From assembly GCA_030625815.1 (NCBI GenBank), contig DAOUQF010000002.1, forward strand, positions 62,001 to 126,000: 64,000 nucleotides of DNA. The letters are read 5' to 3'. The notes below the pieces were generated by a model. It ran no database searches, had not been told where the DNA came from, and saw only the letters and a list, made by a program, of their open reading frames with translations. This DNA is from Eubacteriales bacterium (lineage in GTDB: Bacteria; Bacillota; Clostridia; Tissierellales; GPF-1). The translations under genes were made by a program, and so were the position numbers. Numbering within the stretch: the stretch's first letter is position 1; every line of letters starts with the position of its first letter. Below, in pieces: positions 14,060-50,684 of this stretch.

Positions 14060-14068
14060 GAAGATAGA

Positions 14069-14289: not shown

Positions 14290-14309
14290 GAAGGAATGGG
14301 GGACGGAGT

Positions 14310-14970: not shown

Positions 14971-15654
14971 GTGGAAGAAACAGGTAAGATGGGGTTGCAA
15001 TTTGCCCTCGGAAACCAACAAGTTTTTATTCATGACACCCTTGTCAACAGTGTCATCATTGTATTGGTTTTGTGTATTTTCTTTATTGTCGTTAGCCGGA
15101 AGATCAAGGCTGCCGATCCAACAAAAGCACCGAAAGGTGTTGTGCATATCATGGAGATACTTGTAACGGGAATTAATTCCTATGTTGCATCCACCATGGG
15201 GAAAAAAGGGAAAGGGTTTGAACCTTACATTGGCACGCTGGCAGTCTACCTGGCAATAGCAAACCTTTTGGGATTGATTGGCTTTACACCACCGACATCG
15301 GACTACAATGTCACCTTGGCCTTGGCTATTATGACATTCTTCTTAACACAGTTCTTTGGATTTAAAACACAAAAATTGGGCTATTTCAAAAGCTTTACAG
15401 AGCCCTATGCGTTTCTTTTGCCGATCAATCTGCTCGGTGAAATCGCGAATCCGGTTTCATTGTCATTCCGTCTATTCGGAAATATCGTTTCAGGCGCGTT
15501 GATTATGGGATTGCTCTATGGAGCCATGGGTTGGATCACGCCGATCTTTGCACCGGCACTGCATGCGTATTTTGATGTCTTTGCAGGATTGATTCAAACC
15601 TTTATCTTTACAATTCTTACCATGATCTTTATTTCAGGGGCTATGGAAGACTAA
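14971..15654 (+). CDS. atpB: ATP synthase F0 subunit a
   Basis: Membrane stator subunit that forms the ion half-channels against the c-ring. The 227-residue protein has five or six membrane helices and the essential arginine in PVSLSFRLFGNIVSG. It starts with GTG at 14971, directly after the atpI stop and with AGGAGG a few bases upstream. The subunit partners a c subunit with sodium-type ligands (15702). Confidence 0.93.
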   Translation: MEETGKMGLQFALGNQQVFIHDTLVNSVIIVLVLCIFFIVVSRKIKAADPTKAPKGVVHIMEILVTGINSYVASTMGKKGKGFEPYIGTLAVYLAIANLLGLIGFTPPTSDYNVTLALAIMTFFLTQFFGFKTQKLGYFKSFTEPYAFLLPINLLGEIANPVSLSFRLFGNIVSGALIMGLLYGAMGWITPIFAPALHAYFDVFAGLIQTFIFTILTMIFISGAMED

Positions 15655-29642: not shown

Positions 29643-30917
29643 ATGAATATCATGTTAATGGCTGTGATTGGCGCGTTGGCGGCGATTATGGCGAATAAGG
29701 GAATTGCGGTATTTAACGATGGGCTTCGACCGATTATGCCGGAGCACATTGAGGGAAGAATGTCACGAAAAGAGTTGGCGGCAACAGCGTTTGCCATGAG
29801 TTTTGGACTTGTTATCGGTTTTGGTATTCCATTCTCTTTAGCGGCAAGCATTATTTTGATTCATTGTATCCTATTGGGTACTGACATTATTGGCGCTTCT
29901 TCACCAGATGGAAAAAAAGGAATGGTGATTGCAGGGGTGATCGGTGCCCTGTACGGCATCGGAATCCTTTTGGGCTTGGAGAGTGTTGTCAAGGCATTCG
30001 AATTGCTTCCAGTGAACTTTATGGGCAGCTTGGGACAAGTTGGTGCGCCAATTGTCATTGCGTTCGCTGCATTCCCGGCATTGGCGACAGGGTATCAGTA
30101 TGGAGCGAAAAAAGGGGCTCTCAACTTAGGCGTATCGGTCATCGCGCGACAAATCGCGATTGTTGCCGGATCGTTTCAAATGGGATCTGCAACGATTAAA
30201 CTGAACCCGGAAGGTACAGCTTTGATCGTTGGTATGGCGATTCTTCTGATCTATGCGATGCGAGAAAAAGTAGAAGGTGAAACCGTTGACTTGGTTTCTA
30301 TATTCGAAGAGCGTGTGAAACGAATTAAGAAGAATATCCCATATTTGATGGTAATGGGTGGATTGGTTGCAGCGGCAACTGCATCAGGTCTGATGGCGGG
30401 CGATCCGATTTCCTTGAACTTGATGAAGGAAGGTCAATTGATGGACGCTGGCTTTGCAGCCTTGGCGCGTGGTATTGGATTTATTCCTTTGGTTGCTTCT
30501 ACGGCGATCGCAACAGGTGTTTACGGTCCTGTTGGCATGACTTTCGTATTCGCGGTTGGCTTGTTTGTACACAACCCATTGTTGGCGGGTCTTTTGGGTG
30601 CCGCGACGATTGGACTTGAAGTTTTGTTATTGGGTCAGATTGCACATTTCTTGGACAAGTTCCCTGGAATCAGAAAATCTGGCGACAATATCCGAATGGC
30701 GATGTCTCAATTATTGGAAGTTGCTTTGTTGGTTGGCGGTATGAATGCTGCAAATGCAATCGCTCCAGGAATCGGATTCTTCGTGGTTGTTGGTTTATAT
30801 ATCTTGAATGATATTGCTGGAAAACCAGTGGTTCGTATGGCAGTTGGACCGATCGCGGCGATTTTGGTTGGCGTATTGGTAAACGTACTGGCAGTTGTAG
30901 GCTTATTTACAGTATAA
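29643..30917 (+). CDS. yhfT: YhfT-type multispan membrane protein, predicted transporter
   Basis: A 424-residue integral membrane protein with about 11 hydrophobic segments, matching the uncharacterised YhfT family throughout (begins MNIMLMAVIGALAAIMANKG; GFGIPFSLAASIILIHCILLG). As the only membrane protein of the operon, it is the best candidate for the substrate importer. AGGAGG precedes the ATG. A strong hairpin without T-run follows the gene (30928). Confidence 0.84.
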   Translation: MNIMLMAVIGALAAIMANKGIAVFNDGLRPIMPEHIEGRMSRKELAATAFAMSFGLVIGFGIPFSLAASIILIHCILLGTDIIGASSPDGKKGMVIAGVIGALYGIGILLGLESVVKAFELLPVNFMGSLGQVGAPIVIAFAAFPALATGYQYGAKKGALNLGVSVIARQIAIVAGSFQMGSATIKLNPEGTALIVGMAILLIYAMREKVEGETVDLVSIFEERVKRIKKNIPYLMVMGGLVAAATASGLMAGDPISLNLMKEGQLMDAGFAALARGIGFIPLVASTAIATGVYGPVGMTFVFAVGLFVHNPLLAGLLGAATIGLEVLLLGQIAHFLDKFPGIRKSGDNIRMAMSQLLEVALLVGGMNAANAIAPGIGFFVVVGLYILNDIAGKPVVRMAVGPIAAILVGVLVNVLAVVGLFTV

Positions 30918-30927
30918 GGTTGACCCT

Positions 30928-30955
30928 CAAAGGAAGCTGCAGGCAGCTTCCTTTG
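30928..30955 (+). promoter_or_regulatory. Intercistronic hairpin after yhfT
   Basis: Perfect 13-base arms (30928-30940 and 30943-30955) with a tiny loop, followed by GGGAGG rather than Ts. It is not an intrinsic terminator; more likely it protects or separates the upstream message from the enzyme-coding part. Confidence 0.7.
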
Positions 30956-30978
30956 GGAGGTTTATAAGGAGAAAACAT

Positions 30979-32082
30979 ATGCATGCAGACTCAGTCAAAC
31001 GCGTCATGAAAGCCATGATTCGCGCAAAGGAAGAGGAGGGAAAGAGCGTTGTCTCTTTTCAAAAATCCATGATAGAAGAAGCGGTGAGCGTTCTTGAGAG
31101 AAATGAGTCCCTGACGTTATTTGGCGTAAAGGATACCAATCAGATCTCCCGAGACCTTGTCAATCGGTTGCGACGGCAGCCGGGATTTGTTTTTCACACC
31201 ACGGATGCCATGTCCGAACGGGGACGAGCGGTGGATGTGGAGAGGATCAATCCCTTGACGGGTCGAGCGATGACCGGTTCTTCTAGCGGGAGCTGCATCA
31301 ACATTTTGAAGGGAATCAATGATTTAGCCATCGGAACAGACGGGGGCGGCTCCGTATTGGCGCCAGCCCTAAGTACGCAGCTTTTTTCCATTATGGGAAA
31401 AGGAATGGGACTGACGGGAATGACAAAGAAAAAATCAACAGACGAACTGGCCTTTATTCCGGGAGTCGGAGTAATCAGCCATGAGTATCGCCGTTGTGTA
31501 CAGGCCGTCCGCGCACTCTGCGAGGTTACACCGGAAGAATGGAAAAGGACACAATCTGAATTTCAGCTTGCGGTTCCGGAAGCGGGAGGCGTTCAGCTGC
31601 CTGACGGGCGAGATATGCGGGAGGCGTTGCAGCCATACATCAAAGATTTGCCGGAGAATATCCAGGTGAGAACAGTGCAGGTTCCGAACCTGCAGGATCG
31701 AAGAGAGAGCATCGCCTTTCTTGAAGATATCTTTGCGCAAGGATTCGATGCCGTGCTGACTATGGAGGGGCCCATCGATTTGTATGGCTACGGGGATTCT
31801 GTCATGGGTGTTTGGGGCAAGACGGGGGAAACCGGGCAACAGGCTTCGGGCAAATATTTGGTCAAGTCAGCCAATTTGGTGGATGCGACAGCGATCACCA
31901 TACCGGTGCAAGACTTGGCGACGGGCTTGGTGTTAATCGGAAAGTCCGGCAGAGAAGCAGGCGTTCGTCTGATGAAGGTCGCGGAAGTTTTTGTTGAGAA
32001 GGTCGATCGACCTGCCTTGTATCAGCGTTACTTTATGGATGGGTATCAAAATCGAAATTTGGGATTTGGATCGGAGGAATAG
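30979..32082 (+). CDS. Compact amidase-signature family enzyme within the yhf-type operon
   Basis: The 367-residue protein carries the amidase signature: TGSSSGSC (candidate cis-serine S101) and GTDGGGSVLAPA (candidate nucleophile S125). Their 24-residue spacing equals that of GatA and FAAH. K51 in FGVKDTN may be the catalytic lysine, although it is about 25 residues closer to S101 than usual. The enzyme is about 100 residues shorter than typical amidases. It should hydrolyse an amide, urea or carbamate, but the substrate is unknown. As far as I know it is not part of the E. coli yhf operon. AAGGAG precedes ATG 30979. Confidence 0.75.
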   Translation: MHADSVKRVMKAMIRAKEEEGKSVVSFQKSMIEEAVSVLERNESLTLFGVKDTNQISRDLVNRLRRQPGFVFHTTDAMSERGRAVDVERINPLTGRAMTGSSSGSCINILKGINDLAIGTDGGGSVLAPALSTQLFSIMGKGMGLTGMTKKKSTDELAFIPGVGVISHEYRRCVQAVRALCEVTPEEWKRTQSEFQLAVPEAGGVQLPDGRDMREALQPYIKDLPENIQVRTVQVPNLQDRRESIAFLEDIFAQGFDAVLTMEGPIDLYGYGDSVMGVWGKTGETGQQASGKYLVKSANLVDATAITIPVQDLATGLVLIGKSGREAGVRLMKVAEVFVEKVDRPALYQRYFMDGYQNRNLGFGSEE

Positions 32083-32083
32083 A

Positions 32084-32998
32084 ATGGCTATTTATGGAAT
32101 TGGGGGCGTGATTCGCCCGGACCAATTGGGAAAAACATATATGCACGAACATCTCTATTTGGATTTATCGAGGGTGAAAGGGGATCCGGACACGCACTAC
32201 GATGCGACGGATCTTGTGATTGATGAAATGAAGCAGCTGAAGGCGAAGGGGATTTCCACCATCGTGGAAGTAACGAATCACGGCATGGGCCGTGATCTGG
32301 AGCGCATGCAACGAATCGTGAAAGAGTCGGGCATTCAGGTTGTCATCAGCACCGGGTTTTATAAGGATCCGTTTTTGCCGGCGTCAGTACTATCGCAGCC
32401 GGTCGATAAACTGGTCAAGATGATGATCCGAGAATTGAATGAAGGAATCGGAGATTCCGGGATTCGAGCACAATTGATCGCTGAGATCGGCACCAGCAAA
32501 GATCAAATGACAGAGATGGAAGCCAAGGTTTTTGAAGCTGCGGCTCGCGCCCATCGGGAAACCGGAGCGGCCATCAGCACCCATACGACATTGGGAACTT
32601 ATGCCTTGGAGCAATTGGAATTCTTCAAAGGATTTGGGGTCGATCTCGAAAAGGTGGTCATTGGACATGTGGATTTGCGCTGCGATATGGAGACCCATCT
32701 GCGCATTGCACAGACCGGAGCGACGTTGGCTTTTGATACCATTGGAAAGATAAATTACGCGTCCGATGAGGCGCGGGTTAAGCATATTAAAGGATTGATT
32801 GAGCGAGGACATGCCGGTCAGATCGTTCTTTCCCAAGATTTGACGCGCAAGAGTCATTTGAAAGAATTTGGCGGAATTGGCTACTGCTATATGCTGGATG
32901 AATTTTTGCCGAAACTGCGGGAAGCGGGCGTTGGGGAAGAACAAATTATGCAAATGCTAGTGAAAAACCCGGTACGGGTTTTAGATCGAAAGGAGTAA
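32084..32998 (+). CDS. php: Phosphotriesterase homology protein (Php)
   Basis: A 304-residue amidohydrolase-fold protein. Metal ligands of the Php type are visible: MHEHL (HxH), the bridging glutamate in LIAEIGTSK (true phosphotriesterases have a carbamylated lysine there), ISTHT, IGHVDLR and the aspartate in LSQDLTR. Members of this superfamily often act as lactonases or phospho-ester/lactone hydrolases; the natural substrate of Php is not known. ATG 32084 follows GGAGGAA and abuts the amidase gene. E. coli php lies in the corresponding operon. Confidence 0.88.
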   Translation: MAIYGIGGVIRPDQLGKTYMHEHLYLDLSRVKGDPDTHYDATDLVIDEMKQLKAKGISTIVEVTNHGMGRDLERMQRIVKESGIQVVISTGFYKDPFLPASVLSQPVDKLVKMMIRELNEGIGDSGIRAQLIAEIGTSKDQMTEMEAKVFEAAARAHRETGAAISTHTTLGTYALEQLEFFKGFGVDLEKVVIGHVDLRCDMETHLRIAQTGATLAFDTIGKINYASDEARVKHIKGLIERGHAGQIVLSQDLTRKSHLKEFGGIGYCYMLDEFLPKLREAGVGEEQIMQMLVKNPVRVLDRKE

Positions 32999-33002
32999 AA
33001 GG

Positions 33003-34097
33003 ATGAAAACTTATCCCATTCATACCATGTCAATCAATGAAGCAAAGGAGATGCAATTTCGATTGGTCGATTGTATTCATCAGGTGATCCCGGGCGGAGA
33101 GTTTCTTCAGCTGGGAGATTTGGGGGTTACCCGTGCCATGGGGGCGCCGACAACCACACGAAAGGTAGAAGCGGTGTTGGCAAAGTTTTTCAATGCGGAA
33201 GCGGCCATGCTGGTTCGGGGGTCCGGTACGGGAGCCATCCGGAATGTGATGAATGTTTCCAATCAACCGATGGGTGCCATTGTATTGCATGATGCGCCGA
33301 TCTACCCGACCACAGAGGTAATTGTGGATAGCATGGGTCTTCAACCCGTTTGGGTGGATTTCAATGATGAAAGCGATCCGCGCTGGGCCAATTGCGTCAA
33401 GGCGCCGTTTGCCTTGGTGCAGCATTCGAGACAGGGAATCGAAGATTCCTATGAACTGGAAACCGTGATTGCGAAGATCAAGGCTGTGAATCCGGCAATT
33501 GAAATTTTGGTGGACGACAATTACACGGCCATGAAGGCGCCGAAAATCGGGGCGCAATTGGGGGCGGATGGCAGCGCATTTTCACTCTTTAAATTGTTGG
33601 GACCCGAGGGTGTTGGATGCATCGTGGGCACCGCATCCATTATTGAAAAAGTGAGAAAGATCAATTACTCCGGCGGCAGCCAGGTGCAGGGATATGAGGC
33701 GATGGAAGCCTTGCGAGCGATGGTGTATACACCGGTGGCGCTTGCCATTCAGGCGGAACAAGGAACAGAAATCGTGGAACGCTTGAAGAATCAAGAAGTT
33801 GACGGTGTGAAAAATGCATTTATAGCGAATGCGCAATCGCGCGTGATTCTCGTTGAATTCGAGGAACCGATTGCAAAACAGGTCTTGCTGGAAGCGGAAA
33901 AATTAGGCGCTGCGCCGTATCCGATTGGAGCGGAATCGAAATACGAAATTGCGGCTATGTTTTATCGCGTTTCAGGAACCTTTTTAGCGGTGAATCCTGA
34001 TTTTGAATCAACCATGATTCGAATCAATCCCATGAGAGCGGGAGCGGATACGGTAGTGCGCGTATTGAAAGAAGCGATGGAAGCGGCAAAGAATTAG
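33003..34097 (+). CDS. yhfS: YhfS-type PLP-dependent enzyme
   Basis: A 364-residue fold-type I PLP protein, matching YhfS. The probable Schiff-base lysine is in GSAFSLFKLLGPEGVG, with an upstream aspartate (EILVDDNYTA) to bind the pyridinium nitrogen and an RGSGTGAIRN phosphate-binding stretch near residue 77. The family resembles cystathionine gamma-synthase/aminotransferase enzymes, so elimination, aldol cleavage or transamination are all possible. AAAGGAG precedes the ATG. It sits between php and yhfX. Confidence 0.84.
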   Translation: MKTYPIHTMSINEAKEMQFRLVDCIHQVIPGGEFLQLGDLGVTRAMGAPTTTRKVEAVLAKFFNAEAAMLVRGSGTGAIRNVMNVSNQPMGAIVLHDAPIYPTTEVIVDSMGLQPVWVDFNDESDPRWANCVKAPFALVQHSRQGIEDSYELETVIAKIKAVNPAIEILVDDNYTAMKAPKIGAQLGADGSAFSLFKLLGPEGVGCIVGTASIIEKVRKINYSGGSQVQGYEAMEALRAMVYTPVALAIQAEQGTEIVERLKNQEVDGVKNAFIANAQSRVILVEFEEPIAKQVLLEAEKLGAAPYPIGAESKYEIAAMFYRVSGTFLAVNPDFESTMIRINPMRAGADTVVRVLKEAMEAAKN

Positions 34098-34106
34098 GGG
34101 GACACC

Positions 34107-35276
34107 ATGTTTTTAGAAAAGACAATAACAAGAAATCCTGCGTTGGTGGAAGCGGCGATTGCATTGCATCAGCAGTGCGTGATTCAGCCGGACACCTATG
34201 TGATGGATTTGGATCAGATTGAGAACAACACGCGGCTATTGGCCGAAGAGGCAAAAAAACAGGGCATTTCCCTATATATGATGACCAAGCAGATTGGCAG
34301 AAATCCGGAACTGGCAAAACGAATCGCTTTGGCGGGAATCGAACAAGCGGTTGCGGTGGATCCATGGGAGGCATTGGTGCTGGCGAAAGCGGGCGTTTCT
34401 CTTGGACATGTGGGACATTTGGTTCAAATTCCGGATGGAATGATCGCGGAAATTTTGTCTTACCGCCCAGAAGTGGTGACGGTATTCTCCATAGAAAAAG
34501 CCAAGGCGATTTCAGAGGAAGCCCAAAAACAGGGATTTATACAAAAAATTCTGATTCGCGTTGTCGGGGAGCGGGATCGCCTGTATCCTGGACAAGAGGG
34601 CGGATTTTTGGAAGAAGATTGGATTTCCACAGCAAAAAGTGTGATGGCGATGCCGGGTCTTGCTTTGGCGGGCGTAACCGCCTTTCCATGTTTCTTGTAC
34701 GAAGAGGGAAGCGTGAAGCCAACGGAGAATTGTAAAACGGTTCAGCGGGCAGCCAAGCGAATTCAAAGCGAATTGAAACTTAAATTGGAGCAGGTGAATA
34801 TGCCGAGCGCCAATTCCGTCGAGACCATCAGGCAGATTGCAGAACTCGGTGGAACACATGGGGAGCCGGGACACGCCTTGACGGGCACGACGCCCCTGCA
34901 TGCGGTGCGGGATTTGCCTGAGCTACCAGCCATGGTTTATATATCGGAGATTTCTCATTGCATGGGAGAGAAAGCCTACACCTACGGCGGCGGGTTTTAT
35001 CGACGGTCCAATGTTGAGAAAGCCTTGGTGGCGAATGCGAAAGACCCAGCGCAAAGAGTGGTTGTTGATGCGGATGAGCCGATCGCCGAGATGATCGATT
35101 ACTATGGAATGATTGATGCGAGTGACAAAAATCTTCATGTCGGAGATACGGTTTTGTATGCCTTTAGAACCCAGATCTTTATGACGAGAAGCAGCGTGGC
35201 TTTAGTGGCGGGGATTCAATCGGGCAAACCGGAGTTGGTTGGCATTTACGACGGGCTTGGCAGAAAGAAGGATTAG
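34107..35276 (+). CDS. yhfX: YhfX-type PLP protein of the alanine racemase fold (fold type III)
   Basis: A 389-residue protein with the N-terminal barrel of alanine racemase-like enzymes: the PLP lysine is most likely in MMTKQIGRNPELAKRIALAG near residue 58. HGEPGHALTGTTPLHA and KAYTYGGGFYRRS are family hallmarks further on. Classical racemases use a second catalytic tyrosine from a partner chain; I cannot confirm it here. It could act as an amino-acid racemase or decarboxylase on the pathway compound. Start ATG after GGGGGAC. Confidence 0.83.
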   Translation: MFLEKTITRNPALVEAAIALHQQCVIQPDTYVMDLDQIENNTRLLAEEAKKQGISLYMMTKQIGRNPELAKRIALAGIEQAVAVDPWEALVLAKAGVSLGHVGHLVQIPDGMIAEILSYRPEVVTVFSIEKAKAISEEAQKQGFIQKILIRVVGERDRLYPGQEGGFLEEDWISTAKSVMAMPGLALAGVTAFPCFLYEEGSVKPTENCKTVQRAAKRIQSELKLKLEQVNMPSANSVETIRQIAELGGTHGEPGHALTGTTPLHAVRDLPELPAMVYISEISHCMGEKAYTYGGGFYRRSNVEKALVANAKDPAQRVVVDADEPIAEMIDYYGMIDASDKNLHVGDTVLYAFRTQIFMTRSSVALVAGIQSGKPELVGIYDGLGRKKD

Positions 35277-35282
35277 GGCAGG

Positions 35283-36482
35283 ATGAAAAAACGGGCAATC
35301 GTATTGATTATTGATAGTTTAGGGGTAGGTGCCATGAATGATGTCGCGCGTGTTCGCCCGCAAGATTTGGAAGCGAATACCTTCGGACATCTTTTGGACA
35401 TCCATCCTGATTTGGGAATTCCATATCTGAAACAATTGGGGATTGGATCCATTCTCTCTCACCCTGCTTTGGAATTGCAAGATCCGGAGGCGAGCTTTGG
35501 CGCATGCGCGCTGTTGCACGAGGGGGCCGACAGCTACCTGGGACATCAAGAAATTATGGGAACCAAACCGCTTCCTGCAACCATTGTTCCCTTTGTGGAT
35601 ATAATGGCAGCTGTGAAAAAGGGATTGGAAGCGAGCGGGTATCGCGTAAGTATTCCGGATGACAACAAGCCATATCTTTTGATTAATGAAGTGGTTGTGG
35701 TTGCCGACAATATTGAAACGGATTACGGTCAAATCTATAATGTGACGGGAGCGATTGATGAAATTTCCTTTGATGAAATCCTAAAGATCGGTCAGTTGGT
35801 TCGTTCAATGGTAAAGGTGAATCGAGTGATTGCATTGGGGGGAGAAGGGGTTTCCACGGAATGGATTCTCTCATGCATCGAGAAGCGTGAAGATGGATTG
35901 GTTGGTGTAAATTCACCGAAATCCAATGTTTATCAAAAGGGATATCAGGCGCGCCACCTTGGGCTGGGAGTTGATCCCACCAAGCAAGTGAGCGGTATTG
36001 CCTTTCAAGCCGGTCATGAAGTGGTCTTGATTGGAAAAATGCAGGACGTGATTGCTTGCACGGGGGCGACAAAAATGCCCGCTGTGGATACGGGATTGGT
36101 TCTTTCGAGCATTGAAGGCGCGATGGATCAAGTGGAATCGGGATTGATTGCAGCAACCATCCAAGAAACCGATCTTGCGGGACATGCTCAGGATGCCGAC
36201 CGCTATGCTTCTTTGGTGGAGATGGCAGATCGAGGAATTGGAAGAATTTTAGAAAAAATGAGGGCTGACGATCTTTTGATCATTAGCGCCGATCATGGCA
36301 ATGATCCTTGTGTGGGACATAGCCAGCATACCCGGGAGAAGACCTTCCTTTTAGTTTATCAAAAGGGGAAAGAAGCAGTTGCGTTGGGGGAAAGGGAAAC
36401 CCTTTCGGATATCGCGGCGTCGGTCGCGGCCTTTTTGGGCGTGAATGCGCCTGAAAATGGAACGAGTTTTATTGAGGAGTAG
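35283..36482 (+). CDS. yhfW: YhfW-type phosphopentomutase-like metalloenzyme
   Basis: A 399-residue member of the alkaline phosphatase/phosphopentomutase superfamily. Metal sites are visible at both ends: IVLIIDSLGVGAMND (first aspartate) and SADHGNDPCVGHSQHTRE (Asp-His, His-x3-His). YLGHQEIMGTKP resembles the phosphopentomutase loop with the phospho-acceptor threonine region. A mutase acting on a phosphorylated sugar or amino-sugar is likely. It lies between yhfX and the NagB-like gene. Confidence 0.85.
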   Translation: MKKRAIVLIIDSLGVGAMNDVARVRPQDLEANTFGHLLDIHPDLGIPYLKQLGIGSILSHPALELQDPEASFGACALLHEGADSYLGHQEIMGTKPLPATIVPFVDIMAAVKKGLEASGYRVSIPDDNKPYLLINEVVVVADNIETDYGQIYNVTGAIDEISFDEILKIGQLVRSMVKVNRVIALGGEGVSTEWILSCIEKREDGLVGVNSPKSNVYQKGYQARHLGLGVDPTKQVSGIAFQAGHEVVLIGKMQDVIACTGATKMPAVDTGLVLSSIEGAMDQVESGLIAATIQETDLAGHAQDADRYASLVEMADRGIGRILEKMRADDLLIISADHGNDPCVGHSQHTREKTFLLVYQKGKEAVALGERETLSDIAASVAAFLGVNAPENGTSFIEE

Positions 36483-36487
36483 GGAAT

Positions 36488-37234
36488 ATGCGAGTACTGG
36501 TTGTAGAAAATTATGAAGAGATGAGTCGAGAAGCGGCGAGTCTATTTCAAATAAGAATTGAAGAAAAGCCTGGTTTGGTGCTGGGATTGGCAACGGGCAG
36601 CACGCCGATCGGCACCTACAAGGAATTGATTAACCGATATCAGGTCGGGAAAATTCGATTTCAGCAGGCAAGCGTCTTTAATTTGGATGAATACTGTGGG
36701 TTGGACAAAAACCATGAACAAAGCTATGCGCGGTTTATGGAGGAGAATTTCTTTCGATCAATTGACGTTGACAGAAAGAATACATTTATTCCCAATGGAA
36801 ACGCAAAAGACAGGCAAGCAGAATGTGAGCGATACGACACCTTGATTCGGGAACGAGGCGGAATTGATTTGCAATTGTTGGGGATCGGGGAAAATGGACA
36901 TATTGGATTTAATGAACCGAACGATTTGTTGTCGGCGGGAACCCATCAGGTGGAATTGGAGCAGGGAACCATAGAGGCGAACAGTCGGTTCTTTGTTACT
37001 CGGGAAGAGGTGCCGAAGTCGGCTTTGACTATGGGAATGGGAACGATTCTTAAAGCGAAAGAAATTGTTTTGTTGGCTTCTGGAGCAAAGAAAGCGGATG
37101 CGATTCAAGGCTTGCTGAGTGGGAAGATTTCGACGAAGAATCCGGCGAGCTTTTTGCAGCTTCATCCACGGGTTACCGTAATTATTGATCGGGAGATCGC
37201 GGATGCGATCAAATTGAAGCAGGATGTTGCATAA
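36488..37234 (+). CDS. nagB: Glucosamine-6-phosphate deaminase (NagB family)
   Basis: A 248-residue cytoplasmic enzyme with the full NagB set: ATGSTPIGTYKEL (phosphate loop), FNLDEYCGL with catalytic Asp, and GIGENGHIGFNEP. It should convert an amino-sugar phosphate to a keto-sugar phosphate and ammonia. Being the last gene of the yhf-type operon, and absent from the E. coli one as far as I know, it hints that the pathway ends in a hexosamine-like phosphate. The allosteric GlcNAc-6-phosphate site cannot be judged. It could be the cell's ordinary NagB that happens to sit here. Confidence 0.9.
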   Translation: MRVLVVENYEEMSREAASLFQIRIEEKPGLVLGLATGSTPIGTYKELINRYQVGKIRFQQASVFNLDEYCGLDKNHEQSYARFMEENFFRSIDVDRKNTFIPNGNAKDRQAECERYDTLIRERGGIDLQLLGIGENGHIGFNEPNDLLSAGTHQVELEQGTIEANSRFFVTREEVPKSALTMGMGTILKAKEIVLLASGAKKADAIQGLLSGKISTKNPASFLQLHPRVTVIIDREIADAIKLKQDVA

Positions 37235-43014: not shown

Positions 43015-43626
43015 ATGTTGAAAATTGTATTGATTCGACATGGATATTCCATGGGGAACAAGGCGCATACTTTGAGCGGCTGGCATGATGTGCCGCTGAC
43101 GGAAGAAGGGATCGAAGCCTTGCAGGCATTGCAGAAGAACTATCCCTATCCGAAGACGGACGGATATTGTTCGAGCGATTTGAGCCGCGCTTACGATACG
43201 GCGAGAATTCTTTTTCCCGAGCAGGAGATTGTCAAGATTTCGGGTTTTCGCGAAATTCATTTTGGCATTTATGAAGGCATGGGCGTCGATCAGATTAATC
43301 ACGATCAATTCTTTGATGCGTGGTTGGCCGGGGCTGAAGTGGAAGAGGGAGAAAACTATGATCGCTTTCAAGAGCGAGTGATGAGCGGCTTGAAATATTT
43401 GAGCCTTCAAATGATGGAATCCGGCAAGGAGAGTCTAACCCTTGTTTGCCATTCCGGTGTGATTCGCTTGATTTATACCTTGTGCCATCAAAAGGAAGTG
43501 GCCGATCTTTTTGATCTGCCTGTTCCGAACGGGCTGGGCTTTGAGTTGAGTCTTGAGAATAAAAACGGTGCGGTAGAATTGCTAAAAATGAAACGTCTTA
43601 AGCGGTTGCAAGAGATCAAGGGGTAA
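43015..43626 (+). CDS. Histidine phosphatase superfamily protein
   Basis: A 203-residue phosphoglycerate mutase-like phosphatase with the catalytic LIRHGYSMGN, the second site GFREIHFGIYEG and the distal VCHSGVIRLIY. These supply the two catalytic histidines, the arginines and the acid. The substrate could be a sugar phosphate, alpha-ribazole phosphate or nucleotide; context does not tell. RBS GGAGGGG. It precedes the LacI-controlled operon but is likely transcribed apart from it. Confidence 0.88.
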   Translation: MLKIVLIRHGYSMGNKAHTLSGWHDVPLTEEGIEALQALQKNYPYPKTDGYCSSDLSRAYDTARILFPEQEIVKISGFREIHFGIYEGMGVDQINHDQFFDAWLAGAEVEEGENYDRFQERVMSGLKYLSLQMMESGKESLTLVCHSGVIRLIYTLCHQKEVADLFDLPVPNGLGFELSLENKNGAVELLKMKRLKRLQEIKG

Positions 43627-43674: not shown

Positions 43675-43703
43675 TTGACGAAAGTGGAAAGTTCAGATAA
43701 AAT
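43675..43703 (+). promoter_or_regulatory. Promoter of the sugar ABC operon
   Basis: TTGACG (43675-43680), 17-base spacer, TAAAAT (43698-43703). Confidence 0.65.
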
Positions 43704-43708: not shown

Positions 43709-43722
43709 TGTAATCGATTACA
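43709..43722 (+). promoter_or_regulatory. LacI-family operator 1
   Basis: Perfect 14-base palindrome TGTAATCGATTACA right after the -10 box, covering the transcription start. The central CG is typical of LacI/GalR operators. Confidence 0.9.
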
Positions 43723-43758: not shown

Positions 43759-43772
43759 TGTAATCGATTACA
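43759..43772 (+). promoter_or_regulatory. LacI-family operator 2
   Basis: Identical palindrome TGTAATCGATTACA, exactly 50 bases after operator 1 and 22 bases before the first start codon. Paired sites allow cooperative binding. The regulator is probably the LacI protein encoded at 49707. Confidence 0.9.
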
Positions 43773-43793: not shown

Positions 43794-45059
43794 ATGAAAA
43801 AACGTTTTGCATTATTGTTGGTTGTATTGCTCGTATTGCCGCTTTTCGCAGGCTGTGCGCAGCAGGAAGAAGGATCTGTAACGATTACGTATTATGGCCG
43901 TCCAGATGAAAAGGGAATTGAAACCACGATGATTGAGGCATTCGAAAAAGAAAACCCAAACATCAAGGTGAATTACGTAGAACTTCCTGAAAGTACGGAT
44001 CAGAAATTGCAGACAATCAATACCATGCTGCAAGCGAAGGATCCAGCAATGGATTTGTTCGTGGGAGACGTTGTATGGACGCCGATCTTTGCATCCGCCG
44101 ATTGGGTATTGCCTCTAGACGATTACTTGACGCAAGAAGAAATCGACGAGCATGTTCCGGGCGCGATGAAAGCGTATACCTATCGTGATCATGTGTACGG
44201 AATTCCATTCTTTACAGATGGCGGCATGTTGTATTATCGGACAGATCTTCTAGAAAAGTACAATAAGTCAGTTCCAACGACTTGGGATGAGTTGATTGAA
44301 ACCGCTTCATATATTATGGCGCAAGAGAAGGATCCGAATTTGTATGGCTATGCGGGATCATGGAAGCAGTATGAAGGCGTAACCTGTTCATTGACTGAAT
44401 TGGTTTGGTCTCATGGCGGCGACTTCTTGGATAAGGAAGGCAATGTCATCTTTGATTCGCCGGAATCCGTAGCAGCCATGACTGTCATGGAAAAAATGGT
44501 GCATGAAGCGAAGATTACGCCGCCGGGCGTTGGCGGCTTCGGCTCCGGGGACATGCGTGCATTGGCGTTGAACGGCCAGATGATCTTTACGCGCGACTGG
44601 CCAAGCTTCTACAGCAACTCCATGGATCCTGAAAAATCCAGCGTTGTTGGCAAGATTAAATATACAGTACTTCCGCACGCGCCGGGTCAAGATTCGTATT
44701 CAACTCTGGGCGGCTGGGGCATCATGGTATCAAACTTCACGGATAATCCGGAAGAAGCTGTAAAATTCGCAAAATTCCGCTCCAGCTACGAATCGCAAAA
44801 ACAAGAAGCCTTGTTGATTGCGCATTTGCCAACAAGAAAAGCCTTGTACGAGGATGCGGAGATCGTGGAAAATGAGCCGTGGATGGTGGACATGCTGCCA
44901 GTTATGATGTCAACCAATCCTCGTCCGCAATCCGCATACTATGCGGAACTTTCCGCGCATTTGCAACAAGCCTCACAGGATGTGATTGCCGGAAATAAGA
45001 CACCGGAAGAAGCTGTAAAATACGCGGCAGAGAAAATGAAAGAGACCTTGGGTCAATAG
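43794..45059 (+). CDS. Sugar ABC transporter, substrate-binding lipoprotein
   Basis: A 421-residue family 1 extracellular solute-binding protein. The signal peptide ends in a lipobox (LFAGC, Cys near residue 22), so it is anchored outside the membrane. The domain shows the usual ITYYGRPDEKG start, the AKDPAMDLFVGDVVW stretch, YGIPFFTDGGMLYYRTDLL and the late RPQSAYYAELS region. Family and neighbours (two permeases, GH13 protein) suggest an oligosaccharide such as an alpha-glucoside. First gene of the LacI-controlled operon. Confidence 0.93.
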   Translation: MKKRFALLLVVLLVLPLFAGCAQQEEGSVTITYYGRPDEKGIETTMIEAFEKENPNIKVNYVELPESTDQKLQTINTMLQAKDPAMDLFVGDVVWTPIFASADWVLPLDDYLTQEEIDEHVPGAMKAYTYRDHVYGIPFFTDGGMLYYRTDLLEKYNKSVPTTWDELIETASYIMAQEKDPNLYGYAGSWKQYEGVTCSLTELVWSHGGDFLDKEGNVIFDSPESVAAMTVMEKMVHEAKITPPGVGGFGSGDMRALALNGQMIFTRDWPSFYSNSMDPEKSSVVGKIKYTVLPHAPGQDSYSTLGGWGIMVSNFTDNPEEAVKFAKFRSSYESQKQEALLIAHLPTRKALYEDAEIVENEPWMVDMLPVMMSTNPRPQSAYYAELSAHLQQASQDVIAGNKTPEEAVKYAAEKMKETLGQ

Positions 45060-45067
45060 ATGGATGT

Positions 45068-45100
45068 GGAAGCTTGGTTTTTCAAGCTTCCCTCCTTTTT
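45068..45100 (+). terminator. Intercistronic attenuator hairpin
   Basis: GGAAGCTTG / CAAGCTTCC stem, GTTTTT loop, tail CTCCTTTTT. Such hairpins behind binding-protein genes lower permease expression. Confidence 0.65.
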
Positions 45101-45115
45101 AAGGAGTGAAGGGGT

Positions 45116-45991
45116 ATGAAAAGACGGGAAAAAATCGGCTATTTATGTTTATTGCCGGCCGCCTTGTTGGTCTTGGTTTTTGTGTTCTATCCAGTGGCGA
45201 AGACGATTTGGTTGAGCTTTCATGAACTGCGGGTACAAACCATGGTGGATGGAGCAAAGTTTATTGGATTTGGCAATTATGAAAAAATCTTGAGAGATGA
45301 AACCTTTTGGAAAACCTTCCGCTGGACGTTTATGTTTACGGTGATATCCGTTTCCATTGAGCTTGTCATCGGAATGGGACTTGCCCTTATAATGAATCGA
45401 AAGATTCCGGGGCAGGGGATTATTCGAACGACCATTTTAATTCCTTGGGCAATCCCGACCATTGTTGCCGGGATGATGTGGTCTTATCTATTCGGGCAAT
45501 ACGGCATGATCAATGAAATTCTTTTAAAAGCCCATATAATTACAGCGTATCTTCCGTGGATGACGGAAGAATTCTATGCAAAAACCGCGATTATTATCGC
45601 TGATGTTTGGAAAACGACCCCGTATATGTCGCTTTTACTTTTAGCGGGACTTCAGAATGTGCCAAAGAACTTGTATGAGGCGGCTGCCATCGATGGAGCG
45701 GGTAAAATACAGCAATTTTTTCGAATTACAATTCCCATGATTAAACCGGCTTTGATGGTTGCGGTTTTGTTCCGCGTGGTTGCTGCGCTTCGGATTTATG
45801 ACTTAATCGCGGCGATGACCTCCGGCGGACCGGCGGGTACCACCGAGAGTCTGTCCATTTACGCGGTCAGTACCTATTTCCGTTACGGCAACTGGGGATA
45901 TGGCGCAGCGCTTTCTGTTGTGATGCTGGTCTTGGCGCTGATCATCAGTTTGTTCTTTGTGGATGCGATGAAATCAAAGGTCGGTGAATAG
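45116..45991 (+). CDS. Sugar ABC transporter permease (MalF type)
   Basis: A 291-residue membrane protein with six helices. The EAA loop that docks the ATPase is visible as EAAAIDGAGKIQQFFRITIPM. It pairs with the second permease, whose gene follows directly. No ATP-binding subunit is encoded here, so a shared MsmX-type ATPase elsewhere in the genome is expected. Confidence 0.93.
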   Translation: MKRREKIGYLCLLPAALLVLVFVFYPVAKTIWLSFHELRVQTMVDGAKFIGFGNYEKILRDETFWKTFRWTFMFTVISVSIELVIGMGLALIMNRKIPGQGIIRTTILIPWAIPTIVAGMMWSYLFGQYGMINEILLKAHIITAYLPWMTEEFYAKTAIIIADVWKTTPYMSLLLLAGLQNVPKNLYEAAAIDGAGKIQQFFRITIPMIKPALMVAVLFRVVAALRIYDLIAAMTSGGPAGTTESLSIYAVSTYFRYGNWGYGAALSVVMLVLALIISLFFVDAMKSKVGE

Positions 45992-45992
45992 G

Positions 45993-46820
45993 ATGAAAAA
46001 TATCAGTAAAAAAGTAATCTACCTCTTATTCTTTGTGATTTTTGTGGGATTTATGTTGTTTCCTTTTCTGTTTATTTTGTTCAGTTCCTTTAAGCTGCCG
46101 AAAGACATTATGGCGATTCCGCCAAAGTTGTTGCCGACGCAATGGATTTTTTCCAACTACGTGGACGCCTTTCAGATTCAACCCTTGGTGATTTATTTGC
46201 GCAATAGCTTGATTATGTCCTTATTGGTTGTGTTGATGACGATTTTGATCGGCTCGTTGGCAGCCTATGCCTTGTCTCGAACCGAGATCAAGGGAAAGAA
46301 AATTTTTCTTGTTTTTCTTTTATTGATCTCCCTATTGCCGCCGGTTACCATTATCAATCCAATCTATCAATTGTTGAGCAAGGTGCATTTATTGAACACT
46401 TATTTTGGCTTGGCATTGGTCATAACAGTTTTGGAATTGCCGCTGGCGGTCTGGTTTTTAACGGCGTTTTTCAATACCATTCCAAAATCACTGGAAGAGA
46501 GCGCGGAGATCGATGGCGCCAATATTGTTCAAGTATTCCGGTCGATTCTTTTTCCGCTTGTGAAATCGGGAATCTTCATCGTCAGTATTCTGGTCTTTAT
46601 TGGGGCGTGGAATCAATTCCTCTTTGCTTTGGTCTTGAATCAATTTGAAGCGCGTCGAATGGTTACCGTTGGAGTCACCTTGTATATTACCGATTATCTG
46701 GTGCCGTGGGGGGTCTTGTCGGCTGCATCCATCATTGTCATCATTCCATTGATTCTGATGGTATTGGCGCTGCAAAAACGGATTCTATCCGGTGTACTGG
46801 AAGGCGGGGTGAAGGAGTAA
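45993..46820 (+). CDS. Sugar ABC transporter permease (MalG type)
   Basis: A 275-residue membrane protein with six helices and the EAA loop ESAEIDGANIVQVFRSILFPL. ATG 45993 follows GGTGAATAGG and lies just behind the previous stop; a GTG nine bases earlier is possible. Together with the previous gene it forms the transmembrane pair. Confidence 0.93.
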   Translation: MKNISKKVIYLLFFVIFVGFMLFPFLFILFSSFKLPKDIMAIPPKLLPTQWIFSNYVDAFQIQPLVIYLRNSLIMSLLVVLMTILIGSLAAYALSRTEIKGKKIFLVFLLLISLLPPVTIINPIYQLLSKVHLLNTYFGLALVITVLELPLAVWFLTAFFNTIPKSLEESAEIDGANIVQVFRSILFPLVKSGIFIVSILVFIGAWNQFLFALVLNQFEARRMVTVGVTLYITDYLVPWGVLSAASIIVIIPLILMVLALQKRILSGVLEGGVKE

Positions 46821-48052
46821 TGAAGATTGCGATTGTGATCAACACCTATATCGTAACAACCGCCGGGGAGAAAAACCCCTTTGATCACCCAACGCCTCTA
46901 TGGTTGTTTGAAAAAGAAAATACCCTGAAGGCGACGTTGGAAAGCCTGCGGGACGCCAATAAAAGAGTGGAAGACGAACTGACTCTGTATTTGTTTGGGA
47001 TTGCCGCCAATGAGAAAACAGATTTTGATAAAGCGATCGAATCGAAGATCCGGAAGCTGGTACTGGAGGTGGGTGAACTTCCAGTAACGCGTGTGATCAC
47101 CAATCGTCAGGTCAAGGATTTCAAAGAGGCGACGGACATTGAATTCTTTGAGAGCATGGGCTATCCGGAAATTCGAAACCTGGGGCTTTTGATTCCGAAT
47201 CTCTTCGGGGAAGATTTGATTATGCAATTGGACGACGATGAGCTTGTAAGGCCCAATCACTTGGTTCGGTTCGCAGAGATATTTGAAGAACATCCGGAAT
47301 ATGGGATCGTGACGGCGCCCTATGAAAAAGATGGAACCGCTCGCATTCAAGGAAAGGATCCCCTGTCCAATTGGAGAAAATATTCGGCTATGGATGAGGA
47401 CCTCGAAGAATTGTTGGGAAGCAAGGCGTGTTCCAAGACCCTCTTTGGGTTTGGAGGCAATCTCTGCCTGCGAACCTCGGTGGCGAGGGAAGCGCACTAT
47501 CCAAGGCGTGTGCCGCGGGGGGAAGATTTTTCTTTCCTGCTCGCATGTCGGCTCCTTTTTGCAAATGGAGATCCGGAAACCGGATTTGCATCCGAACAAT
47601 CGAAGTTCTTAACCTGGTTCTGTCCGGAGGAAGCGGTAACGATTCTGCATCGGCCGCCGGTCGAGGCAAAGGCTGCATTCCTTCGATATTTTGAAAACAA
47701 TCTGAATCGATTTATCCTGGAGCGGCGAATGGTGACCAGCCAAACTGGATTCACCCTTCAGGATTTGGCGGAGAGTTCCCATTATCTGACGGCCATGTTT
47801 GGACAAAAGGATTTTAAGTCGGAGCTGCGGTTATGGATTCAAGCAATTCGCGCTGAGCGAAGGGATATTTTGGATGCCGTCATGGTGGATCAAATGGAAG
47901 AGCGATTGTTGGCAGCTTTGGAAGAAGTGGAAGCCACACCGCGCTGGGAAAATTATCTTCGGGAGTGCAGGGCATTTCGGGAGGCGCAGGAGCAACTTGT
48001 CTCTTGGGAGTTGGCTTCGTTATTGCCGAAGATCAGGGGGTGGATGGAATGA
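46820..48052 (+). CDS. GT-A fold glycosyltransferase (family 2-like) in the sugar operon
   Basis: A 410-residue soluble protein beginning MKIAIVINTYIVTT, a typical GT-A opening. The metal-binding acidic motif is MQLDDDELV, and RGEDFSFLLACRL provides the later acidic residue seen in family 2-like enzymes. There is no membrane segment. A glycosyltransferase between sugar permeases and a GH13 protein is uncommon; it may build or extend a compatible-solute glycoside or a storage oligosaccharide, but donor and acceptor are unknown. The ATG overlaps the permease stop; the end overlaps the GH13 start (ATGA). Confidence 0.72.
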   Translation: MKIAIVINTYIVTTAGEKNPFDHPTPLWLFEKENTLKATLESLRDANKRVEDELTLYLFGIAANEKTDFDKAIESKIRKLVLEVGELPVTRVITNRQVKDFKEATDIEFFESMGYPEIRNLGLLIPNLFGEDLIMQLDDDELVRPNHLVRFAEIFEEHPEYGIVTAPYEKDGTARIQGKDPLSNWRKYSAMDEDLEELLGSKACSKTLFGFGGNLCLRTSVAREAHYPRRVPRGEDFSFLLACRLLFANGDPETGFASEQSKFLTWFCPEEAVTILHRPPVEAKAAFLRYFENNLNRFILERRMVTSQTGFTLQDLAESSHYLTAMFGQKDFKSELRLWIQAIRAERRDILDAVMVDQMEERLLAALEEVEATPRWENYLRECRAFREAQEQLVSWELASLLPKIRGWME

Positions 48053-49683
48053 CTTGGTGGAAAGATACCGTCATTTATGAAATCTATCCGGAGAGTTTTT
48101 ATGACGCCAATGGCGATGGCGTGGGGGATTTGGCCGGGATTCGGGAGAAACTGCCGGAGCTTGTCGAGCTCGGGGTGGAAACCCTGTGGCTCTGTCCAAT
48201 CTTTTCGTCTCCCATGAAGGACGGCGGTTACGATGTCGGCGATTATTGCGGAATCCGCGAAGAGTTGGGAACCCTCGAAGAGTTTGATGCCTTGGTTGCT
48301 GCGTTGAAGCGGAATCAGATGCGATTGATTCTCGACATCCCCATCAACCATACCTCGGATCAGCATAATTGGTTCCAGCATAGCAAAGCGTCAAGCGATA
48401 ATCTGTATCGTGATTTCTATATTTGGCGTGCAGGAAAGGGGGAATCCCCCCCAAACAATTGGATCTCCTCGAAGGTGGGCGGATCCTGTTGGGCGCAAAC
48501 GGAGGAAACCGAGGACTATTACTTGCATCTCTATTCCGATTGGCAGCCAGATTTGAACTGGGAGAATCCAGCGGTTAGGGAAGCGATGGCGAAGGTCCTG
48601 CAGTTTTGGATTGACCGGGGCGTCGATGGATTTCGATTGGATGTCATCAATAAAATTGGAAAGGAACCGGGATTGCCGGATGCAAATATAGATCCAGAAA
48701 CGGGATTACCGGAATATCCGGAACCGTATTTTCAGAATCATCCCTTGTCTCATGGATATATTCAAGAATTGAGAAGCCGCTTGAAGGGAGATGAGATCTT
48801 CTTGATCGGGCAAACGCAAGGGGTTTCAGAAGCGGAGGCCTATGCCTATGCGGCGCCAATTCGAAATGAGTTGGATTCCTTTTTGCAATTTGAGGCAACG
48901 GATTTTCAGAAATCGAAAGGGGAGTCGCAGGAAGCCTTTGTAGAAGGGTGGAAGGCGAAACTCTTTCGCTGGCAAATGATCGATGAACGAGTAGATGCCA
49001 TGATATTTTTTGGCAGCCATGATTTGAGCCGCACAGTTTCCCATTTCGGGGAAGACGAGAGGTATCGGCGGGAATCTTCGAAGGCATTGGCACTCCTCCT
49101 CTTAAGCCTTCGAGGCATTCCGGTTATCTACATGGGCGAGGAAATCGGCATGACCAATGCCCGCTACCGAGATTTTTCGAAATATCAGGATATTCGCACC
49201 CGTTTGGCCTATCAGCGCCGCGTGATTGAGGGCGGCGAGCCGGAAGAGAAAGTCTTGCGGGAAATTTGGGAAACCAGCCGCGACAACGCGCGCTATCCCA
49301 TCCATTGGAATGCGGGACCTAATGCGGGATTCAGCAGGATCAAACCAAGGCTTTCTCCCGCATCCAATTATCGCCAAGTGAATTTTGAAATCGAAGGGGA
49401 AGATCCGAACTCGGTGTTCTCTTTTTACAAGAAGATGATCCGGATCAGGAGGCTAGAAGATGCATTGCGGCGGGGAGGTTTCCGTGCCGCGGAAAGTGTG
49501 CCGGGTGTGATCTGTTTTGAAAGGGAGTGGCAAGGGCGGCGGCTTGTGACTCAAGTGAATTTGACGGACGCAGAGAAAGTCTGCGAGTGGATTGAGGGGA
49601 GCGCCTGCCGGATAGCGACCCATGCGCTGCAAGGGGAAGCCTCGGTTTTATCCGCCTTTGAAGGAAGGATACTTATGATATAA
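48049..49683 (+). CDS. GH13 alpha-glucosidase-like protein lacking the catalytic acid
   Basis: A 544-residue (beta/alpha)8 protein matching oligo-1,6-glucosidase-type GH13: WKDTVIYEIYPESFYDANGD, region I DIPINHTSD, region II GVDGFRLDVINK with nucleophile D198, and region IV FFGSHDLSRTVSHFG with D325. In region III the general acid/base, E255 in the usual GE-x-PGV motif, is Gln here (LIGQTQGVSEAE; codon CAA at 48811). Hydrolysis should be strongly impaired, so the protein may act as a transferase with an activated donor, a sugar-binding protein or a scaffold. The rest looks intact and under constraint. Last enzyme of the operon. Confidence 0.9.
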   Translation: MTWWKDTVIYEIYPESFYDANGDGVGDLAGIREKLPELVELGVETLWLCPIFSSPMKDGGYDVGDYCGIREELGTLEEFDALVAALKRNQMRLILDIPINHTSDQHNWFQHSKASSDNLYRDFYIWRAGKGESPPNNWISSKVGGSCWAQTEETEDYYLHLYSDWQPDLNWENPAVREAMAKVLQFWIDRGVDGFRLDVINKIGKEPGLPDANIDPETGLPEYPEPYFQNHPLSHGYIQELRSRLKGDEIFLIGQTQGVSEAEAYAYAAPIRNELDSFLQFEATDFQKSKGESQEAFVEGWKAKLFRWQMIDERVDAMIFFGSHDLSRTVSHFGEDERYRRESSKALALLLLSLRGIPVIYMGEEIGMTNARYRDFSKYQDIRTRLAYQRRVIEGGEPEEKVLREIWETSRDNARYPIHWNAGPNAGFSRIKPRLSPASNYRQVNFEIEGEDPNSVFSFYKKMIRIRRLEDALRRGGFRAAESVPGVICFEREWQGRRLVTQVNLTDAEKVCEWIEGSACRIATHALQGEASVLSAFEGRILMI

Positions 49684-49706: not shown

Positions 49707-50684
49707 ATGAGTACGATTAAAGAAGTAGCGAAGTATTGTGGCTTCTCCGTAGCAACGGTATCGCGAGTTTTGAACGATGACCCGATTGTCAAGCCTGAAA
49801 CACGGGAAAAGGTATTGGCAGCCATTGAAGCCTTGAACTATCGACCGAATTTGATGGCGAAAAATTTGCGAACACAAAAAAGCAATTCCATACTGGTGAT
49901 GATTCCAACCATTGCGAATCCGTTTTACGCGGAGATTTTACGCGGAATCGAGCAAGGGGTGAAAGAAACGGAAATGAACCCTATTATTGGTACGGTGGAG
50001 TTCGACCCGAGCCACACGGATCATTTTCTAGCGCTTTTGGACAGCAATCAAGCGGATGGGGTAATCTTTATTTCCTCTTCAATCACCAGCGAGCGATTGG
50101 CTGAGGTGGCGAAGAAGCATCCAGCGGTGATGTGTAACGAGTATTTCGATCCCATGCCCGTATCCTATGTTGCCATCAACAATGAAGAAGCCGCCTATGA
50201 AGCGGCCTGCGAGTTGGCAAAGATGGGATGCGAGCGAGTTGCCTATTTTAGCGGCGCACGGGATTCCAGTTCATCGATTGATCGATCTCGTGGCGTGAAG
50301 CGGGCTAAAGAAGAGAATAAATGTGTAGAGGTTGATATTATCAGGGGAGATGATGATTTTCACCATTTGAAGGATAAAATCTGCAAGGTTCTGAGTGAGA
50401 AACCGAACATCGATGGCTTGATTATGAACTCGGACATCAATGGAACAGTTGCCATTCGAGCCCTCGTGGAAATGGGTTTGGTGCCGGGGAAAGATGTGCG
50501 AATTGTCAGCTTTGACGGGACAATGATCTCGGAGCTTACAACGCCCATGCTTACTTGCGTGAAGCAGCCCTTGTTTGATTTGGGGTATTTGGCTGTGCGA
50601 CTCTTGGAAAATCAAATGAAAGAAAAGGATGCGCCCTTTGAACGATTGATTTTGCCACATGAATTTTGCTTAAGAGAAACCTAA
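49707..50684 (+). CDS. LacI-family transcriptional regulator of the sugar operon
   Basis: A 325-residue repressor. The HTH (IKEVAKYCGFSVATVSRVLN) is followed by the hinge helix (LNYRPNLMAKNLR) and a periplasmic-binding-like effector domain (ILVMIPTIANPFYAEILRGIEQG, DGVIFISSS, VSFDGTMISEL). It most likely binds the two TGTAATCGATTACA sites at 43709 and 43759 and responds to the imported sugar (inference from position and operator class). Confidence 0.92.
   Translation: MSTIKEVAKYCGFSVATVSRVLNDDPIVKPETREKVLAAIEALNYRPNLMAKNLRTQKSNSILVMIPTIANPFYAEILRGIEQGVKETEMNPIIGTVEFDPSHTDHFLALLDSNQADGVIFISSSITSERLAEVAKKHPAVMCNEYFDPMPVSYVAINNEEAAYEAACELAKMGCERVAYFSGARDSSSSIDRSRGVKRAKEENKCVEVDIIRGDDDFHHLKDKICKVLSEKPNIDGLIMNSDINGTVAIRALVEMGLVPGKDVRIVSFDGTMISELTTPMLTCVKQPLFDLGYLAVRLLENQMKEKDAPFERLILPHEFCLRET

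Follow-up and report, generated by a model that had tools for sequence, protein, structure and literature searches.

A clade of GH13 proteins with glutamine at the acid/base position, encoded beside a glycosyltransferase in a genome of the Clostridia, and its possible link to glycerate-linked glucosides

The GH13 gene and its active site

The stretch of DNA analysed here, hereafter the window, comprises 64,000 nucleotides from Eubacteriales bacterium (Bacillota; Clostridia; Tissierellales; GPF-1; assembly GCA_030625815.1, contig DAOUQF010000002.1, forward-strand positions 62,001 to 126,000). It includes a gene for a protein of glycoside hydrolase family GH13 in which the general acid/base Glu is replaced by Gln, as had been pointed out in a first-pass annotation of the window. 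The gene and its catalytic positions are as follows.

48049-49683, plus strand: GH13 protein with Gln255 at the acid/base position, an intact open reading frame of 544 residues (translation)
48811-48813, plus strand: codon CAA, encoding Gln255 (translation and phmmer alignment)
48640-48642, plus strand: Asp198, nucleophile position, kept (translation and 1uok alignment)
49021-49023, plus strand: Asp325, transition-state stabiliser position, kept (translation and 1uok alignment)

The GH13 catalytic domain was recognised by a profile search (PF00128, 420.6 bits, residues 12-476), and a phmmer comparison with the PDB places the protein nearest to the oligo-1,6-glucosidases, of which 1uok is the best match (454 bits, E value 4e-135). 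In this alignment the segment LIGQTQGVSEAEA of the window protein lies opposite TVGEMPGVTTEEA of 1uok, and Gln255 falls on the general acid/base Glu. An alignment slip at region III was excluded, the block being gapless against 1uok and in all rows of the alignment that cover it, which are 43 of 44. The -1 site residues Tyr61, Asp62, His101, Arg196, and His324 are also kept. With the oligo-1,6-glucosidases and sucrose isomerases the protein thus shares the catalytic domain, a near-full-length alignment, the Asp nucleophile, the second Asp that stabilises the transition state, and the -1 site; it differs from 1uok in the Glu to Gln exchange, in GSHD for NNHD, in the replacement of the +1 Glu (DIET to DIRT), and in a Lys four residues after the nucleophile. 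The score against the TreC phosphotrehalase model (TIGR02403) is 498.9 bits, below the curated cut-off of 799.05. An AlphaFold model of the protein, built from 5 sequences, had a mean pLDDT (predicted local distance difference test) of 48.0 and was too poor for use. No natural Gln variant of GH13 came up in literature searches confined to the open-access part of PubMed Central (PMC).

Catalytically active members had been described in the first-pass annotation as carrying GE-x-PGV in region III; the GE is indeed found in the Glu-type relatives, whereas PGV is often absent after it. The E295Q mutant of the sucrose isomerase NX-5 is called inactive in the available part of its description, and was crystallised with intact sucrose, both of whose sugar units are touched by the Gln (PMC3777934). 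Since this mutant belongs to the same group, ordinary hydrolysis by the window protein is unlikely, and the earlier expectation that it should hardly hydrolyse glycosides is supported by the analogy.

Distribution of glutamine at the acid/base position

Among 325 fetched loci, 277 aligned across the acid/base column and gave 263 distinct proteins, the window protein included, of which 257 have Glu and 6 have Gln. The count leaves aside the other 48 loci, a match in genome G014 whose matched piece lies outside the column, and matches under the listing thresholds (E value 1e-30 for the search of the order, 1e-150 for those of the class and phylum); because some loci and sub-threshold matches were left unread, the Gln clade may be larger. 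The wider searches covered 249 genomes of the order, samples of 391 from the class and 398 from the phylum, and 11 of the family of genome G340; those of the order, class, and phylum share genomes, and scored the best 5 or 3 candidates per genome.

Gln is present in the two further genomes available from the family, which belong to the same genus as the source genome and whose orthologues are 80 and 74% identical to the window protein. One of these orthologues is that of the public metagenome-assembled genome GPF-1 (L008, contig JABXKS010000054.1, Clostridia). In a scan of public genomes restricted to the best 80 of 327 relatives, all 79 loci other than GPF-1 have Glu, at an identity to the window protein of no more than 41%. 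The wider searches added three Gln proteins, one each from G215 and G216, which belong to the same order and a different family, and one from G340, of the same class and a third family; all three are 44-45% identical to the window protein. Of the listed matches, 93 initially lacked a locus; once fetched, all 93 had Glu.

For the tree, 163 distinct proteins were thinned to less than 62% identity, L179 was dropped for its in-frame stop, and the Gln rows were restored, giving 46 rows; the columns around regions III and IV were excluded. The six Gln rows form one side of a branch with a Shimodaira-Hasegawa-like approximate likelihood ratio (SH-aLRT) support of 100, obtained by a quick tree search without bootstrap, and a single change explains the Gln/Glu label. 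The tree program flagged one long branch (L157) and odd composition in five rows, two of them Gln rows. A convergent scatter of Gln across the family was not seen. To judge from the sequences, the Gln proteins are a small and old GH13 clade close to the group of oligo-1,6-glucosidases and sucrose isomerases; on the tree its Glu was exchanged for Gln once, and the Gln was then kept. Asp198, Asp325, and the five -1 site residues named above are invariant in all six, so that the nucleophile and the third carboxylate, both noted in the first-pass annotation, are retained throughout.

The ratio of nonsynonymous to synonymous substitution rates (dN/dS) of the GH13 gene among the three genus members is 0.10-0.12, a rough figure as dS is 1.1-1.9. 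Within the same genus, the ratio is 0.08-0.11 for the gene of a LacI-family regulator and 0.11-0.16 for the genus's own phosphorylase (both described below), and the adjoining glycosyltransferase (GT) gene gave 0.12 in the one of three pairs for which dS could be computed. The matched reading frames of the Gln proteins have no internal stops, and the gene, already annotated as intact, is so in all three species. A sequencing error or a decaying gene could be imagined, CAA being one base from GAA, but Gln occurs in six genomes with two codons (CAA in three, CAG in three), the frames are open, and dN/dS is close to 0.1; we give this explanation practically no weight. Base error, pseudogene, and strain mutation were accordingly excluded by the Gln of all three genus genomes and three distant ones, together with dN/dS. 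The proposed alignment with close homologues thus found Gln conserved in the genus and in a wider clade, while Glu-bearing homologues in the same operon, named in advance as grounds for abandoning the idea, were looked for and not found, all three available genus members having Gln. Gln255 is a clade trait in a gene under purifying selection, and the protein probably carries out altered chemistry rather than being the product of a broken gene.

Residues characteristic of the clade

Three positions set the Gln proteins apart most clearly from the Glu proteins.

48652-48654, plus strand: Lys202, four residues after the nucleophile; Lys in all 6 Gln proteins, in none of the 257 Glu proteins
49195-49197, plus strand: Arg383; Arg in all 6 Gln proteins, in only 3 of the 257 Glu proteins (Glu there in 221 of 257)
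48079-48081, plus strand: Glu11; present in all 6 Gln proteins; of the 257 Glu proteins, 248 have Gln, 7 have Glu, and 2 are uncovered

Leu279, His332, and Ser323 are likewise present in all six Gln proteins, and in only 1, 2, and 3 of the 257 Glu proteins, respectively. Lys202 presumably occupies what in amylases is a position of the +1 site. In the alignment with 1uok, Arg383 stands opposite Glu387; by its 28-residue spacing to the next conserved Arg, it matches Glu428 of NX-5, which hydrogen-bonds the +1 fructosyl unit (PMC3777934). Two new positive charges on the side of the leaving partner, Lys202 and Arg383, suggest that this partner is anionic.

The exchange at position 11 (Gln to Glu) runs opposite to that at position 255 (Glu to Gln). 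If the acid had moved elsewhere, for instance to Glu11, the protein could be an ordinary hydrolase; this would agree with the presence of Glu11 in every Gln protein and in only 7 of the 257 others. Yet those seven Glu-type relatives have Glu11 alongside the acid/base Glu, and position 11, which we take from the fold to lie on strand beta-1, would be on the opposite side of the barrel from beta-5. We regard such a relocation as improbable.

Operon and operator

The neighbouring features of the GH13 gene are the following.

43675-43703, plus strand: candidate sigma-70-like promoter, TTGACG-17-TAAAAT, just ahead of the first operator (by eye)
43709-43722, no strand: operator-like palindrome TGTAATCGATTACA, first copy (pattern search)
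43759-43772, no strand: operator-like palindrome TGTAATCGATTACA, second copy (pattern search)
43794-45059, plus strand: ATP-binding cassette (ABC) sugar-binding protein (profile annotation)
45116-45991, plus strand: ABC permease (profile annotation)
45984-46820, plus strand: ABC permease (profile annotation)
46820-48052, plus strand: GT2-like glycosyltransferase, whose stop overlaps the GH13 start by 4 bases (48049-48052)
49707-50684, plus strand: LacI-family regulator, 23 bases past the GH13 stop

The regulated operon with a glycosyltransferase that had been annotated is recovered here in the 4-base overlap, the LacI gene, and two perfect palindromes, to which the LacI protein would bind. In the source genome (3.2 Mb, 58 contigs, 98.5% complete) exact copies of TGTAATCGATTACA are limited to these two, and each of the two sister species has one exact copy immediately ahead of the GT. 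With one mismatch allowed, a degenerate LacI-type pattern matched the window 7 times where 3.3 matches were expected, and 8 of 100 shuffles reached 7, so that only the two exact palindromes are telling. The same 14-base palindrome was seen in two Streptococcus loci (L070, 5768-5781; L083, 5792-5805), about 2.2 kb ahead of a Glu-type GH13 match, and the word is therefore not private to the Gln clade.

GT, GH13, and LacI form a core unit whose order is kept in the window species and both sister species. The ABC genes (43794-46820) stand between operator and GT in the window species only, out of the three. In the sister species the GT directly follows the operator, an arrangement that resembles insertion of the ABC genes into, or their loss from, the regulon. 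A histidine phosphatase gene at 43015-43626 was set aside as an operon member: in the window and in G002 it is located upstream of the palindromes, and in G001 no phosphatase gene adjoins the GT. A known synthase was not recognised in the window GT, which had no match in the PDB at E values up to 1; a profile of three rows yielded five chance-level matches, the best with an E value of 1.1, and its AlphaFold model, from 3 sequences, was too poor for use (mean pLDDT 41.4).

The main rival explanation of the GH13 protein is that of a pseudoenzyme, which would bind an alpha-glucoside tightly without cleaving it and serve as a sensor, as a storage or chaperone protein, or as a partner of the co-translated GT. 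The two genes do remain adjacent in three species, a binder too would retain the -1 site with its Asp198 and Asp325, and the Glu-to-Gln exchange is an engineered substrate trap, as in the NX-5 mutant that holds sucrose according to the available part of PMC3777934. Against this, the nucleophile is kept in all six Gln proteins, and the dN/dS of the GH13 gene resembles those of its neighbour and of the phosphorylase of its genus. Many dead GH13 proteins have lost the nucleophile. The heavy chains rBAT and 4F2hc are GH13-like proteins without hydrolase function, and rBAT is among the PDB matches of the window protein; they differ as eukaryotic membrane proteins. On balance we consider a pseudoenzyme unlikely.

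Elsewhere in the window, a run of genes at 29643-37234 was likened by eye to the E. coli yhf/php cluster. We take it to include a membrane protein, a phosphotriesterase homologue, pyridoxal-phosphate (PLP) enzymes, and a phosphopentomutase-like protein, and it is followed by a glucosamine-6-phosphate deaminase-like gene.

Genome context and the glucosylglycerate phosphorylase

The Gln genes of G215, G216, and G340 come after those for an ABC importer, a mannosylglucosylglycerate-synthase-like GT4, and a GH130 protein (PF04041). The GT4 proteins score 461, 460, and 441 bits, respectively, against model NF041101, which has a cut-off of 640. The GH130 proteins of G215 and G216 are above the cut-off of the beta-1,2-mannobiose phosphorylase model (450) and that of G340, with 399, is below it; all three would presumably make mannose 1-phosphate. 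The operon of G216 also includes a GH38 gene. Matches to NF041101 are rare: at an E value of 1e-60 the model was matched in 3 of 291 genomes of the class and in 5 of 398 from the phylum.

Twelve GT4 loci were examined, being those encountered and not an exhaustive list. Nine of them (those of the source genome G000 and of G001, G002, G302, G767, G817, G887, G971, and G215:C3) contain a GH13_18 protein with the motif (T/S)ETN, which in the available part of PMC7178133 is a mark of glucosylglycerate phosphorylase. Two others (G215:C2 and G216:C2) have the Gln protein and no phosphorylase within the fetched stretch. The remaining locus, that of G340, probably holds a (T/S)ETN phosphorylase too, as its Gln contig opens on the tail of a binding-protein gene and its phosphorylase contig breaks off in the first part of one, so that both probably belong to a single operon left unassembled. 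The second locus of the source genome (L204, G000:C23:78000-97900, 5399-15027), with a counterpart in both sister species, comprises an ABC importer, a mannosylglucosylglycerate-synthase-like GT4, LacI, a GH13_18 protein with SETN, and GH130. The GH13_18 proteins of L204 and L205 are 37 and 49% identical over their full length to YcjM, the glucosylglycerate phosphorylase of E. coli. With YcjM the window protein shares the family at large and the same kinds of neighbouring genes; it differs in an identity of 25% over 170 residues only (the GH13_18 proteins compared reach 37-49% over 559-582), in the replaced acid/base Glu, and in having GQTQ instead of (T/S)ETN at strand beta-5, where the L204 and L205 proteins have the motif.

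Relatives of the window GT, which have the motifs FDHPTP, DDDE, and RGED in common, directly adjoin the phosphorylase in G216:C11 and G817, at 29 and 25% identity. A GT family with FDHPTP, DDDE, RGED, and HxPP was observed next to glucosylglycerate phosphorylase at L224 (8146-11142) and L220 (6634-9796). Further relatives in G019, G159, and G160 adjoin a second, GT4-like frame, with no GH13 seen by eye within the 1.5 kb flanks. Between the Gln locus of G215 and the phosphorylase locus of the window genus, the ABC, GT4, and LacI genes are 44-62% identical. Gln proteins and phosphorylases draw on the same two kinds of GT partner, which are swapped in G000 and G216, and the simplest reading of this sharing is that both act on glycerate-linked glucosides. 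The GT is GT2-like in the window genus and GT4 in the other Gln members, so that there is no fixed GT partner, which speaks against a pseudoenzyme in that role. Two glycerate kinase genes (PF02595) flank the G971 locus (L222, 5710-6876 and 17536-18663), in keeping with a release of glycerate there.

Each of the six Gln genomes also encodes a phosphorylase that carries the (T/S)ETN motif; in the window genus its gene lies in a separate operon. Simple replacement of an absent phosphorylase was excluded on these grounds, G340 probably having both in one operon, and the presence of both proteins in each genome makes a second, related step more likely than replacement. The phosphorylases also bear on another alternative, an activated-donor transglucosidase, in which alpha-glucose 1-phosphate (from the phosphorylase) or a similar phosphate would glucosylate Asp198 and the sugar would pass to an acidic acceptor. 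Phosphate as a leaving group needs no acid, a phosphorylase able to make glucose 1-phosphate is encoded in every Gln genome, and the GH130 proteins of three loci would presumably be a source of mannose 1-phosphate. That the phosphorylase of the window genus lies in another operon counts against this alternative, which we hold to be still less likely than a pseudoenzyme. The changed function proposed in the first-pass annotation is supported by Gln in all genus members and in the wider clade, of which it is the mark; among the options then listed, the genome context points to the phosphorylase-like and activated-donor ones, with binding or sensing as the rival.

Proposed reaction

We favour, tentatively and with somewhat less than even confidence, an active enzyme whose substrate is an alpha-glucoside of the glucosylglycerate type, in which the partner is anionic, with the substrate itself or phosphate taking the place of the acid/base. 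The glucosyl-enzyme would still be formed at Asp198. The substrate would be an alpha-glucoside with a negatively charged partner, most probably 2-O-alpha-glucosylglycerate or a close relative, in which the anionic partner would be held by Lys202 and Arg383 and its carboxylate would assist bond breakage. Phosphate would then accept the glucose, needing no general base, and in the reverse direction alpha-glucose 1-phosphate would be the donor. A carboxylate of the substrate beside the bond, together with phosphate as the acceptor, could make the missing acid/base bearable. A Glu-to-Gln mutant of sucrose phosphorylase, attributed to Schwarz in 2007, reportedly keeps the half-reaction with phosphate. 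The activity itself, its substrate, what the basic residues do, and how the acid/base is replaced are all inferences.

A precedent exists in another family. Myrosinase keeps its nucleophile, acts on the other anomer, cleaves S-glycosides with a good leaving group, and uses ascorbate as the base. The plant enzyme (GH1) has a natural Gln at the position of the acid/base Glu, according to the available part of PMC6274110. The Gln clade is like it in this residue and unlike it in family and anomer, and shows the same pattern of an acid/base Gln with the nucleophile kept, conserved in the clade. The more specific proposal is that the clade is a natural branch of retaining GH13 enzymes devoid of the acid/base, in which a glycerate-type carboxylate held by Lys202 and Arg383 plus phosphate replaces Glu. 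It would then be the GH13 equivalent of myrosinase and a novel kind of enzyme in the metabolism of glucosylglycerate or mannosylglucosylglycerate; this is possible and yet doubtful.

Several points weigh against a glucosylglycerate-type reaction. The GH13_18 phosphorylases keep Glu on the same presumed substrate, so that glucosylglycerate by itself does not explain the loss of Glu. As all six Gln genomes carry both proteins (in G340 probably in one operon), the Gln proteins may perform a different step. No match to NF041101 in the searched genomes reaches the cut-off, which only the control, Thermotoga maritima, exceeds, and the operons of the sister species have neither transporter nor GH130. 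Lys202 is placed at the +1 site by analogy with other GH13 enzymes, and very similar features would be expected of a binding protein.

Implications

Few residues of these proteins are kept as strictly as the acid/base Glu (257 of 263), and the six exceptions all belong to this clade. Annotation by similarity would name the Gln proteins alpha-glucosidases, probably wrongly. If the proposed reading is true, loss of the Glu with retention of the nucleophile would be a natural experiment on how a retaining glycosidase turns into a transferase, a phosphorylase, or a sensor, and the metabolism of compatible solutes linked to glycerate, of which little is known, would gain a further gene.

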